Shown here: positions 28,786 through 34,030 of the stretch, piece by piece
Layout: each line of letters starts with the position of its first letter
Numbering within the stretch: position 1 is the first letter of the stretch
Origin: Gemmatimonadota bacterium
Lineage (GTDB): Bacteria > Gemmatimonadota > Gemmatimonadetes > Longimicrobiales > Gaopeijiaceae
Direction of reading: 5' to 3'
Assembly (NCBI GenBank): GCA_030428885.1
Contig: JAUIEJ010000001.1
Coordinates: 620,001-684,000 of the forward strand
Length of the DNA: 64,000 nucleotides
Made by a program: the position numbers and the translations under genes
Notes under the pieces: model-generated
What the model was told of the DNA's origin: nothing
Seen by the model: only the letters and a program-made list of their open reading frames with translations
The model's database searches: none

Positions 28786-29166
28786 CTACGGTTCGGATTC
28801 CCGGACCATCCGCTCCACCCGTTCCACCAGTCCCGGAAAGTCGAAGGGCTTCTCCAACACCCGGGGGTGGTGCGCCAACTCGCCCAGGGCCCCAACGTCG
28901 CCGGTGAGAAGGAGGGCTCCCGCGGGGATCCGACCCCCCGCGTCGCATTCCTCCCAGAAGGCCACTCCGTTGCGGGGCATCCCGGCGTCCACCAGCGCCA
29001 CGTCGGGCCGGTCCGTCTCGAGGTGGGCCCGGGCCGTGTCGGTGTCCGCGGCGGCCACCACGGCGTGTCCGCGCCGCTCCAGGATCATGGTGAGGGCGAG
29101 GCGCAGGGAAGGGTCGTCGTCGGCCACGAGAACCCGCAGTACGCGGGGGGATTCGGAGGCGTTCAC
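28786..29166 (-). CDS. Single-domain CheY-like response regulator
   Basis: 126 residues, only a receiver domain. Acidic pocket ADDD (15-18), phosphoacceptor Asp60 in LVDAGMP, Thr88 in LLTGD and Lys106 in EKPF: all canonical, so phosphorylation is expected. There is no output domain, so it probably acts by protein contact, for instance with the FliM N-terminal peptide, or as a relay intermediate. Minus strand, convergent with motB (12 bases) and divergent from fliC; its start lies 20 bases from the fliC promoter. No CheA is present in the window. Confidence 0.88.
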   Translation of the reverse strand: MNASESPRVLRVLVADDDPSLRLALTMILERRGHAVVAAADTDTARAHLETDRPDVALVDAGMPRNGVAFWEECDAGGRIPAGALLLTGDVGALGELAHHPRVLEKPFDFPGLVERVERMVRESEP

Positions 29167-29185
29167 CGAGGGGCGTTCCTGGCTC

Positions 29186-29212
29186 TAAAGGTTTCTCCGC
29201 ACCTCCCGACAC
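29186..29212 (+). promoter_or_regulatory. Sigma-28-like promoter of fliC
   Basis: TAAAGGTT (29186-29193), an 11-base spacer and CCCGACAC (29205-29212) align with TAAAGTTT-N11-GCCGATAA and keep the TAAAG and CCGA cores. A start near 29219 would leave a leader of about 73 bases before fliC. Confidence 0.65.
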
Positions 29213-29291
29213 TACGCATCAGAGGTTGGAAGGCCAACCTGCACCGGGGCAAGGATGCCCCGGCTCAACACTCCAAGGAAGGAGCCGTACC
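29213..29291 (+). promoter_or_regulatory. fliC 5' leader with two hairpins and CsrA-type site
   Basis: First hairpin: AGGTTGG (29223-29229), loop AAGG, CCAACCT (29234-29240). Second: CCGGGGC (29244-29250), loop AAGGAT, GCCCCGG (29257-29263). Both stems are perfect 7-bp pairs. The second loop presents CAAGGATG, the core of the CsrA consensus (ACARGGAUG). A third GGA cluster, AAGGAAGGAG (29275-29284), is the ribosome-binding site itself, 7 bases before ATG 29292. The arrangement resembles the Bacillus hag leader, where CsrA bridges an upstream site and the ribosome-binding site. csrA is encoded 3 kb upstream. CsrA control is inferred, not shown. Confidence 0.68.
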
Positions 29292-30416
29292 ATGCGCATC
29301 AACACCAACGTCGCCTCGATCAATGCCCAGCGCTCGCTCGGCATGTCGAACACCTCGGTGAGCCGGTCCCTCGGACGTCTGTCCTCGGGCTTCCGGATCA
29401 ACCGTGCGGCCGACGACGCTGCCGGCCTGGGCATCGCCAACAAGCTCCGTGCGGACCTCCGCGCGCTGAAGCAGGCGTCCCGGAATGCCGAGCAGTCCAA
29501 CGCTCTTCTGCAGGTCGCCGAGGGTGGCGCCCAGCAGATCCAGGGCATCCTGGAGCGGATGAAGGAACTCGCCACGCAGTCCGTGTCGGACAACGTGGAC
29601 TCGGCCGGTCGCGCCCGGATCGAGACGGAGTTCACCGAGCTGGTAGGTGAGATCGGCCGGATCGCCGACTCCACCAAGTACCAGGGTTCGGCGCTGCTCG
29701 ACGGCAGCTTCGGCGCCCAGGTCGACACCAACGTGGCCAACAGCACCGTGCTGGCCGGCGGCACCGAGATCACCGGCGCCACCATCAGCGGCGTGGCCGC
29801 GGGAACGTACACCTTCACTCGTGACGCCACGGGCGGAGCCGAGACCATCACGCTGGCCAACAGCACGAGCACGCTCACCCAGACCGTGAGCCTCGTGGGC
29901 TTCACCGCCGGCGGCTCGATCTCGTTCGACGCCTTCGGTGTGACGCTCCAGACGTCCAACGCCTTCGACATCACGGCGGCGGGCGACGGTGCGGGCGACC
30001 TGGTGGTTGCGGGGACCACGGCCGAGTTCGTCGTGGGCGCGTCGGGCACGCTGGCCGACGACAAGATCACCATGTCGGGCCTGAACCTCACCGTGGCCGG
30101 TCTCGGCCTCACGGGCGCCAGCCTCGCCACCGACACGGTGGCCGAGTCGGCCCTGACGGCCATCGATGCCGCCATCGGTACGGTTTCCGACGCTTTCTCC
30201 ACCATCGGCGCCAAGCAGAACCGGCTGGACTATGCCAGCGCCAACGTGAACGCGGCCATCGAGAACTTCGCCGCGGCCGAGTCCGTGATCCGTGACGCCG
30301 ACATGGCGGCCGAGATGGCGGACCTCACGAAGAACCAGATCCTCCAGCAGGCCGGTGTCTCGGTCCTCGCCCAGGCGAACCAGAGCCCCCAGCTGGTGCT
30401 GCGTCTCCTCCAGTAG
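29292..30416 (+). CDS. fliC: Flagellin FliC
   Basis: Filament subunit. 374 residues from ATG 29292 with a strong ribosome-binding site; an upstream in-frame ATG at 29226 would fall in the leader hairpins and is rejected. Conserved D0/D1 ends: MRINTNVASINAQRSL, LSSGFRINRAADDAAGLGIA, and at the C-terminus QNRLDYASANVNAAIENF, DADMAAEMADLTKNQIL and the ending LVLRLLQ. A Thr/Ala/Gly-rich variable middle (about 145-300) is the surface domain. Single copy in the window. Confidence 0.98.
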   Translation: MRINTNVASINAQRSLGMSNTSVSRSLGRLSSGFRINRAADDAAGLGIANKLRADLRALKQASRNAEQSNALLQVAEGGAQQIQGILERMKELATQSVSDNVDSAGRARIETEFTELVGEIGRIADSTKYQGSALLDGSFGAQVDTNVANSTVLAGGTEITGATISGVAAGTYTFTRDATGGAETITLANSTSTLTQTVSLVGFTAGGSISFDAFGVTLQTSNAFDITAAGDGAGDLVVAGTTAEFVVGASGTLADDKITMSGLNLTVAGLGLTGASLATDTVAESALTAIDAAIGTVSDAFSTIGAKQNRLDYASANVNAAIENFAAAESVIRDADMAAEMADLTKNQILQQAGVSVLAQANQSPQLVLRLLQ

Positions 30417-30513: not shown

Positions 30514-33500
30514 GTGGAAGCTTCGATCAGCGGCATCGCCAGCGGCATCCAGTGGGCCGACATCATCGACGACCTCATGGCCGTCGAACGTCGCCCGGTG
30601 GATCGGCTGGAGGCCCAGATCGAGGAGCAGCAGATCAAGACGGACGCGTGGGACACGGTCCGGACCCTGCTCCAGTCGGTGAACTCCGCTACCCAGGGCT
30701 TCACCTCGGCCACGAGCGCCCTCCAGGCGTTTTCCGTTTCCCTCTCGGGATTCTCCGCCGCCACCGGCAGTTCGGTCCAGGCATCGGCGAGTTCCTCGGC
30801 GACCCCCGGGACCCACACGGTCCGGGTGTTGGCTCGAGCCGAGGCCGAGATGGTCGGGGGCGCCCTCCAGGCCTCCCGCTCCGACGCCCTGGGACTGTCG
30901 GGCGAGTTGCTCGTGAACGGCCGGGCCCTCCAGGTCGAGGCCACCGATTCCCTCGACGACATCGCCGGAAAGTTCAACTCGGCCAACAGCGGCTCGTCCC
31001 GCTCCGGGGTCGCCGCCACGGTGGCCTCGGTGGACGGGCAGTACCGGCTCCTCCTGGCCGCCACCGACACCGGCGAGGCCGGCGTTCGCCTGGCCGACCC
31101 CGACGGAGTGCTCCAGTCCCTCGGGCTCGTGGACACCACCACCGCGCTGCGCAACCGCACGGCGTCGGGCTTCACCGGCGACGCCCTGGCCGACGCCACC
31201 TCCACGGTGGCCTCGCTCCGGGGGCTGACGGGCGGTGGGGGTGTGGGCACGATCCAGCTCGGGTCCGGACCCAGTCAGTTCTCGGTGGCCATCGACCTCA
31301 GCACCATGTCTCTCAGCGACGTGGCTTCGGCCATCAACACCGCTGCGGGGACGGCGGGAAGCCCCGTGGCGGCGTCGGTGGAATCCACCACCGACGGTGA
31401 GCGCCTGGTGGTGTCGGGCACCAACGCCTACGTGGACGCCGGCGGCGTGCTCCAGATCCTGGGCGCCGTGGAAGGCGGCCGGTCCGCGGTCGCCCAGCGC
31501 ATCGAAGGCGGTGTCCTGGCGACCGACGGAGTGGGCACGCCGGCCACGGCCGGCACCCTTCTGGCCGACCTGTGGACCGGCGGCGCCGCCGCCGGAGTGA
31601 CGGTGGGCGACACCCTCACGTTCCGGGGCACGAAGGGCGATGGGTCGACTTTCGAGTTCACCCACACCGTGGCCGGGGGCGACTCCCTCCAGACCATCCT
31701 GGACCGCCTCAACGGCGCCGAGGGATACGACGGCTCCGCCACCGCCTCGATGTCGGCCGCGGGACGGATTCAGGTCACCGACGGGTCCGCCGGGGCTTCG
31801 CTCCTGGACCTGGAGATGTTGGCGGGCAACGAGGGCGGCGGTGCTCTCGATCCCGGCGCGTTCACGGTGGCCCAGGAAGGGCGGCGGCGGGAGATCGTCG
31901 CCGGGACCAACGCCCTGGTGGAGGTCGACGGCACCTACGTGGAGCGGGCGTCCAACACCATCACCGACGCCATCGACGGTGTGACCCTCACCCTCACCAC
32001 GGCCGACCCGTCCACCGAAGTCGACATCACGGTGAGCCGGGACGTGGGCGCCGCGGTGGCGGCGGTGGAAACCCTGGTGGCGGCCTACAACAAGGTGACG
32101 GAGTTCGTGGATCTGGGGCTGGGGGTCCAGGGCGACGCCCGCCCCCCGCTGGCCGGCGACGCGGTCCTGCGCTCCATGCGCACGGCGCTGCAGTCCGCCA
32201 TGCAGTCCCAGATTCTCCAGGTGTTGGGGGGTGGGGCCACGCGCCTCGCCGACGTGGGCATCGAGATCCAGAAGGACCGGAGCTTCTCCGTCGACAAGAC
32301 GGCCCTCACGGCGGCCTTCCAGCAGGATTTTGCCCGCACGGCCGACCTGTTCCGGGGGCAGGGCTTCACGTCGACGTCGGCCCTGTCGTTCGTCGGGTCG
32401 TCGTCGGCCACGGCCCAGGGCACCTACGACATCGAGGTCACCGCCGCCGCGACCACGGCGACCCTGACCTCGGTGGGGGCCGCGGCGACCTACGTGGACG
32501 ACGGCGTCGCCGACCTGCTGTCCCTCACCGACACGTCGACCAACCGGGTCTACGAGATCGCCCTGAACAACGGCGACTCGCTCCAGGACATCGTGGATCG
32601 TCTCAACACCGAGCTGGCCACGGCCCAGGCGCGGGAGCTCACCGCGAGCCGGACCGTCTACTCCGACCCCGGGGGGACCACGGCCGCCGACGAGAACACG
32701 CTTCTGTCGGACCTTCACTACGGAGACGGGAGCAACGCCGGCTTCGGCGCGGGGCAGGTGGTGACCTTCAGCGGGACCGGCGCCGACGGCGTCTCGTTCC
32801 TGCGCACCTTCACGGTCACCGATCCGGGCACCCAGACTCTGGGCGACCTCCGGGACTCCCTCGCCGCGGCGCTGGCCGGGTCGGCCGACGTGTCGATCCA
32901 GAACGGCGCCCTGTCGATTCAGGCCTCGACGGCGGGTTCGTCGCTCCTGGCGGTCACCGTGGGGTCGGACATCTCGGGCAACAGCGCCTTCCTGGGCACC
33001 CTGGACGCCACGGTGGAAGGCCGGAACGCCTCCGACCTCGAGGCCGAGGTCGTGGGGGGCGAAATCGAGATCCGCGCCCCCGTGGCCGGGTCGGCGTGGG
33101 GATTCACCCTGGGCTTCACCGGTGGCGGCACCGACGGCACGGGCCAGCTCGGCCTCACCGCCGGCACCTACGCCGGCACCGACGTGGTGGGCACCATCGG
33201 AGGAGAGGCGGCCACGGGCGTGGGCGCCATCCTCACCGGGGCCGCGGGAACCGCAGCCGAAGGCCTGGCCGTGAGCACGGGCTCGGGCACGGGCACGGTG
33301 GGCACCGTGACGTACAGCGTGGGCGTGGCCGCCCGATTGGAGACCGTCCTGGAGGGACTGCTGGGAACGGATTCCGGATCGGTGACCGCCATCCAGGAGG
33401 GCCTCGATCGCTCGGTGACCCGGCTCGACGAGCGGGTCGACCGGTGGGAAGACCGCCTCGAGCGTCGCCGGGAAATGCTCGTGCGACAGTTCACGGCCCT

Positions 33501-33597
33501 GGAGTTGGCCCTGGCCCAGGCCCAGTCCCAGTCCGCCTGGTTGGCGGCACAGTTCGCTTCACTGTTGGGCACACCGAGCGCGGGCCAGAACGGCTGA
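30514..33597 (+). CDS. fliD: Filament cap protein FliD (HAP2), enlarged
   Basis: Caps the filament and guides flagellin folding. 1027 residues from GTG 30514, about twice the length of enterobacterial FliD. The N-terminal FliD_N domain starts ISGIASGIQWADIIDDLM. The FliD_C core has VAAVETLVAAYNKVTEFVD and VGIEIQKDRSFSVDKTAL, then is split after LFRGQG (about 615) by an insert of some 330 residues. The closing coiled coil resumes at VAARLETVLEGLLG and ends SQSAWLAAQFASLLG. A 95-residue module occurs twice (residues 348-442 and 729-824), once in each extension. The enlarged middle is probably surface-exposed. Confidence 0.93.
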   Translation: MEASISGIASGIQWADIIDDLMAVERRPVDRLEAQIEEQQIKTDAWDTVRTLLQSVNSATQGFTSATSALQAFSVSLSGFSAATGSSVQASASSSATPGTHTVRVLARAEAEMVGGALQASRSDALGLSGELLVNGRALQVEATDSLDDIAGKFNSANSGSSRSGVAATVASVDGQYRLLLAATDTGEAGVRLADPDGVLQSLGLVDTTTALRNRTASGFTGDALADATSTVASLRGLTGGGGVGTIQLGSGPSQFSVAIDLSTMSLSDVASAINTAAGTAGSPVAASVESTTDGERLVVSGTNAYVDAGGVLQILGAVEGGRSAVAQRIEGGVLATDGVGTPATAGTLLADLWTGGAAAGVTVGDTLTFRGTKGDGSTFEFTHTVAGGDSLQTILDRLNGAEGYDGSATASMSAAGRIQVTDGSAGASLLDLEMLAGNEGGGALDPGAFTVAQEGRRREIVAGTNALVEVDGTYVERASNTITDAIDGVTLTLTTADPSTEVDITVSRDVGAAVAAVETLVAAYNKVTEFVDLGLGVQGDARPPLAGDAVLRSMRTALQSAMQSQILQVLGGGATRLADVGIEIQKDRSFSVDKTALTAAFQQDFARTADLFRGQGFTSTSALSFVGSSSATAQGTYDIEVTAAATTATLTSVGAAATYVDDGVADLLSLTDTSTNRVYEIALNNGDSLQDIVDRLNTELATAQARELTASRTVYSDPGGTTAADENTLLSDLHYGDGSNAGFGAGQVVTFSGTGADGVSFLRTFTVTDPGTQTLGDLRDSLAAALAGSADVSIQNGALSIQASTAGSSLLAVTVGSDISGNSAFLGTLDATVEGRNASDLEAEVVGGEIEIRAPVAGSAWGFTLGFTGGGTDGTGQLGLTAGTYAGTDVVGTIGGEAATGVGAILTGAAGTAAEGLAVSTGSGTGTVGTVTYSVGVAARLETVLEGLLGTDSGSVTAIQEGLDRSVTRLDERVDRWEDRLERRREMLVRQFTALELALAQAQSQSAWLAAQFASLLGTPSAGQNG
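31555..31839 (+). repeat. fliD: FliD internal module, copy 1
   Basis: Encodes FliD residues 348-442. It aligns with copy 2 along its whole length: TLLADL, TFRGTKGDG, FTHTVAGGDSL, then a helix LDRLNGA, a strand RIQV and AGASLLDL near the end. Similarity is at protein level (divergent), so an old duplication or recruitment of one domain type twice. The protein alignment was made by eye. Confidence 0.55.
32698..32985 (+). repeat. fliD: FliD internal module, copy 2
   Basis: Encodes FliD residues 729-824 inside the insert that splits the FliD_C domain. Matching landmarks: TLLSDL, TFSGTGADG, RTFTVTDPGTQTL, helix LRDSLAAA, strand ALSIQ and AGSSLLAV. No nucleotide-level identity long enough for recent recombination is evident. 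Confidence 0.55.
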
Positions 33598-33622: not shown

Positions 33623-34030
33623 ATGATTCGTGGCGCCGCGATGTACCAGAACAGCCGGGTGGTGGGCGCTCGGCGTGAGAGCCTGGTCGTGCTGCTGTAC
33701 GAGCGCCTCCTCGCCGATCTGCGGGGCGCCGTGCGAGCCATCCACGACCAGGACTACGAGCTCAAGGCCCAGCGCATGGAGCATGCCCTGGAGATCCTCT
33801 TCGAGCTTCTGGGCACCCTGGACCACGATGCGGGCGGAGACCTGGCCGGTCGGCTGGCGAGCCTCTACGGCTTCTTCATCTCCGAGATCAACGCCGTGAG
33901 CCGCAGCCTGGAGACGGCCCGTCTCGAGCGGGTCATCTCGCTCATCGACGGACTCTACGGCTCCTGGCGCCACGTCGGCACGCTGACCGAAGGCGCCGAC
34001 GCCGAAGCTCCCGCCGGTACCGGACCATGA
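33623..34030 (+). CDS. fliS: Flagellin export chaperone FliS
   Basis: Binds the flagellin C-terminus before export. 135 residues: MYQNSRVVGARRESLVVLLYERLLADL near the start matches the FliS signature, followed by an amphipathic bundle with ELLGTLDHDAGGDLAGRLASLY. 25 bases after fliD with an AAGGAAACGAGAGG-type ribosome-binding site; overlaps the next gene by 4 bases. Confidence 0.95.
   Translation: MIRGAAMYQNSRVVGARRESLVVLLYERLLADLRGAVRAIHDQDYELKAQRMEHALEILFELLGTLDHDAGGDLAGRLASLYGFFISEINAVSRSLETARLERVISLIDGLYGSWRHVGTLTEGADAEAPAGTGP

Follow-up and report, generated by a model that had tools for sequence, protein, structure and literature searches.

The 5′ leader of the flagellin gene fliC in a Gemmatimonadota bacterium (GCA_030428885.1, JAUIEJ010000001.1) is very probably the RNA half of a partner switch of the Hag–FliW–CsrA type, and its sequence leads us to predict that CsrA controls fliC. 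We analysed a 64-kb window (the whole stretch of DNA under study, whose numbering is used below, starting at contig position C2:620001). All parts of the proposed FliW–CsrA–flagellin switch are encoded in the genome. The leader combines a GGA hexaloop hairpin ~35–43 nt before the start codon with a GGA in the Shine–Dalgarno (SD) sequence, a form that has no Rfam family (none reached the gathering score within 28900–29500). We give an even chance to the wider proposition that the leader is one case of a phylum-spanning flagellin cis-element, probably of ancestral origin, that is retained wherever flagellin is under CsrA and FliW control and disappears when they do.

Anatomy of the fliC leader

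The fliC gene (29292..30416, + strand) begins with the ATG at 29292 and encodes a flagellin of 374 aa with Pfam Flagellin_N and Flagellin_C domains. On its 5′ side lies a sigma-28-like promoter, TAAAGGTT-N11-CCCGACAC (29186..29212, +). The pattern TAAAGNTTN{9,13}CCGANA has this site as its single match in the 64-kb window, where 0 were expected. A sigma-28-like motif was found 5′ of the hairpin in 88/95 relatives compared with 3/95 controls, mostly at a distance of 31–44 nt from the hairpin. With the usual sigma-28 spacing, transcription would start near 29217–29221, so that hairpins 1 and 2 would both be transcribed, in a leader of presumably ~75 nt. Facing away from fliC, across the intergenic region that the two have in common, is an open reading frame resembling a response-regulator receiver (28786–29166, minus strand; PF00072, 41.1 bits), whose start lies ~20 bp from the sigma-28 −35 element.

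RNA folding of positions 29213–29310 gave a minimum free energy of −36.7 kcal/mol (z = −3.4 relative to shuffles) and three structures. Hairpin 1 (AGGTTGG-AAGG-CCAACCT; 29223..29240, +) has a 7-bp stem and an AAGG loop. Hairpin 2 (CCGGGGC-AAGGAT-GCCCCGG; 29244..29263, +), also with 7 bp, displays the hexaloop AAGGAU and is the predicted high-affinity CsrA site, BS1. The third, CTCC-AAGGAA-GGAG (29271..29284, +), is weak and holds the GGA of the SD sequence AAGGAAGGAG (29275..29284, +) in a hexaloop; it is the predicted second site, BS2. Reading and folding of the sequence thus bear out what a first-pass annotation of this DNA had described: a sigma-28-like promoter, two perfect 7-bp hairpins, a GGA in the loop of the second, and another in the SD.

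Conservation and covariation of the hairpins

Flagellin genes were found in 17/97 relatives and in 106/395 genomes of the phylum, and the regions upstream were taken as leaders. Defined as an NNGGAN hexaloop closed by at least 4 bp, the hairpin was present in 96 of 100 Gemmatimonadota flagellin leaders, compared with 1.25% of shuffled leaders and none of 98 control segments taken farther upstream. In f11, which belongs to another class of the phylum, it precedes many of the several flagellin genes. The first-pass annotation had made its reading depend on conservation of the loop among close relatives, and the conservation extends across the phylum: A.GGA is invariant among 80 distinct hairpins, and the stem is rewritten around it (GGGGC/GCCCC, GGAGC/GCTCC, GAGGC/GCCTC and GGGGA/TCCCC). 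All seven stem pairs (7/7) have changes on both sides, with 127 such cells in total. In the alignment of hairpin 2, 83.9% of cells are paired, against 37–48% when the partner strand is slid, and the covariation score is 0.502 compared with 0.214 on shuffling. The two outer pairs are frequently open, which leaves a conserved core of 5 bp. Judged by these sequence comparisons, hairpin 2 is not a chance match.

A covariance model of hairpin 2 run on its own genome returned the fliC leader as the top match (28.6 bits, E = 0.012) and as the only one at E<0.1; the next, at 21.7 bits, lies at chance level. This whole-genome scan for other CsrA targets of the same hairpin form therefore yielded no convincing second match.

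The idea of a two-hairpin CsrA switch fared unevenly, holding for hairpin 2 with its conserved GGA loop and failing for hairpin 1, whose loop contains GGA in only 6/97 leaders. A stem of at least 6 bp occurs at the place of hairpin 1 in 47% of relatives and 9% of shuffles. Hairpin 1 is not supported as a general CsrA site, and on this pattern is best seen as a separate, GGA-poor 5′ structural element. Its loop does carry GGA in the same-genus leaders L003 and L004, two of the three close leaders that were fully read, and four other relatives (L007, L011, L012 and L014) have a tandem pair of GGA hexaloop hairpins, suggesting that extra CsrA sites come and go.

Spacing of the two GGA sites

All 97 leaders that have the hairpin also have GGA in the SD region (97/97), although GGA is usual in the SDs of many genes, so that the SD GGA alone is weak evidence and was discounted. 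The distance from hairpin GGA to SD GGA is 24 nt here and 23.2 ± 1.4 nt in relatives, and its spread (standard deviation 1.4) is smaller than that of the hairpin-to-ATG (2.5) or SD-to-ATG (1.8) distance, these two being correlated at 0.83. CsrA dimers bridge two sites 10–63 nt apart, and do so best above 18 nt (PMC7652899). The fixed spacing of ~23 nt is what a bridging CsrA dimer would need, and the site overlapping the SD lies at a bridgeable distance from hairpin 2, the arrangement that marks leaders of the hag/flaA type.

CsrA and FliW are encoded in the same genome

The only csrA in the genome (26078..26317, +; 79 aa; PF02599, 72.6 bits) lies after a gene that reads by eye as flgK; the next gene runs on the opposite strand. 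The encoded CsrA has the RNA-binding residue R44, together with V51, N55 and the C-terminal extension. Downstream of fliC are fliD (30514..33597, +; Pfam FliD_N and FliD_C) and fliS, for the flagellin chaperone (33623..34030, +; PF02561, 86.1 bits).

The first-pass annotation had seen no fliW and asked for a genome search. That search located the gene at C2:615141-615470 on the minus strand (Pfam FliW, about 103.6–103.7 bits), with a match to the solved FliW structure 5dmb. It is directly downstream of a flgL-like gene on the same strand and sits on the same contig, ~4.5 kb outside the window; it had been missing from view because of the window edge. A FliW-less variant of the switch is thereby ruled out. 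With fliW in the genome the full Bacillus-type logic is present, and the likeness to the Bacillus hag leader drawn in the first-pass annotation is upheld, FliW included.

FliW binding depends on V51 and N55 in Campylobacter and on N55 in Bacillus (PMC7829508) and Geobacter (PMC13407953). One exception to the N55 rule was encountered: the csrA of genome G095 (L272) encodes T at position 55 despite the presence of FliW and the leader hairpin. A complete genome of the same genus, G002, has no flagellin or FliW match and encodes a CsrA with G51 and Q55 in its C-terminal helix (G002:C1:1503641-1503790, L275); its sequence suggests a CsrA possibly released from FliW once the filament had been lost. 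In one genus, g69 of family f6, the FliW match is broken up and lacks profile positions ~50–75, as if the middle of the protein had been lost (G122:C8:91567-91851, G132:C2:916187-916489 and G330:C235:1657-1965).

Co-occurrence of the hairpin with CsrA and FliW

FliW was found in 19/154 genomes of the order and 86/394 of the class, largely the flagellin-bearing ones; it is present in most flagellated relatives and in most genomes with the leader. Six genomes (G126, G130, G227, G389, G294 and G257) have a flagellin-like gene and neither FliW nor CsrA. The hairpin was absent upstream of that gene in 6/6, four of these being f6 genomes whose proteins are divergent and possibly not filament proteins, with uncertain starts. 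Three draft genomes (G350, G318 and G104) keep the hairpin though no FliW was found in them; G318 and G350 belong to genera whose other members have FliW.

FliW is broadly distributed and anticorrelated with BarA–UvrY (Zere et al., PMC4682653). At flagellin loci of other phyla, a hairpin of at least 4 bp located 25–70 nt upstream of flagellin was detected in 20/34 FliW-positive and 0/15 FliW-negative genomes (Fisher p = 7e-5; as the genomes are related and no correction was made for this, such p-values overstate independence). The remaining 14/34 FliW-positive genomes lack the hairpin under the same definition, showing that FliW does not require it. The hairpin is seen in Gemmatimonadota, Chloroflexota (Thermomicrobium, Sphaerobacter), Halanaerobiia, Spirochaetota and some Bacillota. 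FliW-positive Zetaproteobacteria (Mariprofundus, Ghiorsea) have a conserved GTGACAAGGCATGAAGTCGTTCACG-like flagellin leader with no GGA hexaloop hairpin (L154, L163, L167, L168, L171 and L172).

Proposed mechanism and alternative explanations

Transcription from the sigma-28-like promoter would yield the ~75-nt leader, on which one CsrA dimer would bind the loop GGA of hairpin 2 and bridge to the SD GGA 24 nt downstream. From the anatomy of the leader and the known behaviour of CsrA, this bridge is expected to block ribosome entry. By homology, flagellin building up before export would hold FliW; once flagellin is exported, the freed FliW would bind the V51/N55 helix of CsrA and the block would be lifted. 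The CsrA-switch reading of the first-pass annotation draws its support from the invariant loop GGA, the covarying stem and the way in which the element tracks CsrA and FliW.

CsrA could also bind the leader with no relief by FliW, which would then be a flagellin or assembly factor only, release coming from titration by fliC mRNA or from an sRNA. Campylobacter flaA mRNA does itself also antagonise CsrA (PMC4894983), yet we consider release of this kind unlikely here: the encoded CsrA retains V51, N55 and the C-terminal extension, required for FliW binding elsewhere, most genomes with the leader have FliW, and in G002, lacking flagellin and fliW, CsrA has lost both residues. If the hairpins were structural only, stabilising an abundant mRNA at its 5′ end or setting ribosome access, the GGA would be incidental. 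Hairpin 1, with its frequent stem and unconserved loop, fits such a role, but for the leader as a whole the explanation is very improbable, given that A.GGA is retained in the loop of every hairpin 2 even as the stem sequence changes, and that hairpin 2 is missing where CsrA is missing. The strong GC stem of hairpin 2 could recall a transcription terminator or attenuator. This we rejected as scarcely credible, as there is no U-tract, no terminator-like site was found, and the hairpin stands 28 nt before the start codon at a conserved spacing to the SD.

Relation to known flagellin leaders

The type of switch is already known, from Bacillus hag and Campylobacter flaA. No relevant paper came up in a literature search that combined CsrA with Gemmatimonadetes or Gemmatimonadota, and in the literature searched a phylum-wide, covarying Gemmatimonadota element and its cross-phylum form appear undescribed. 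FliW–CsrA control of flagellin has been tested in only a few species; the prediction extends it to the Gemmatimonadota, where the RNA element is conserved well enough to be defined by covariation. Whether this checkpoint on flagellin dates from early in the history of bacterial flagella can be approached through the constant 23-nt spacing and through the genomes in which hairpin, CsrA and FliW are all absent.

Like the Bacillus subtilis hag leader, the fliC leader has two CsrA sites (here predicted), one of which overlaps the SD; the two organisms also share FliW, a CsrA with N55 and the C-terminal extension, and a flagellin gene as the target (PMC7652899). They differ in that fliW is beside csrA in Bacillus (PMC4894983), whereas here fliW is next to flgL, ~31 kb from csrA, and csrA ends the run of genes on the flgK side. 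The present host also belongs to a different phylum and is a diderm, and its sites are predicted from sequence.

The first-pass annotation had regarded the diderm host as unusual, but Campylobacter flaA already provides a diderm example of this arrangement (PMC4894983). In Campylobacter jejuni the flaA leader has two stem-loops (SL1 and SL2) with ANGGA in the loop, of which the second lies on the ribosome-binding site; Campylobacter species show compensatory changes in them, and fliW is not adjacent to csrA in this diderm either (PMC4894983). The flaA leader measures 45 nt, unlike the ~75 nt here with an extra 5′ hairpin whose loop lacks GGA, and its conservation was shown within the genus, compared with across the phylum in the present case. 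In Clostridioides difficile, a monoderm, the same three partners, fliC, FliW and CsrA, control flagellin (PMC8523840); the comparison with that organism covers the partners.
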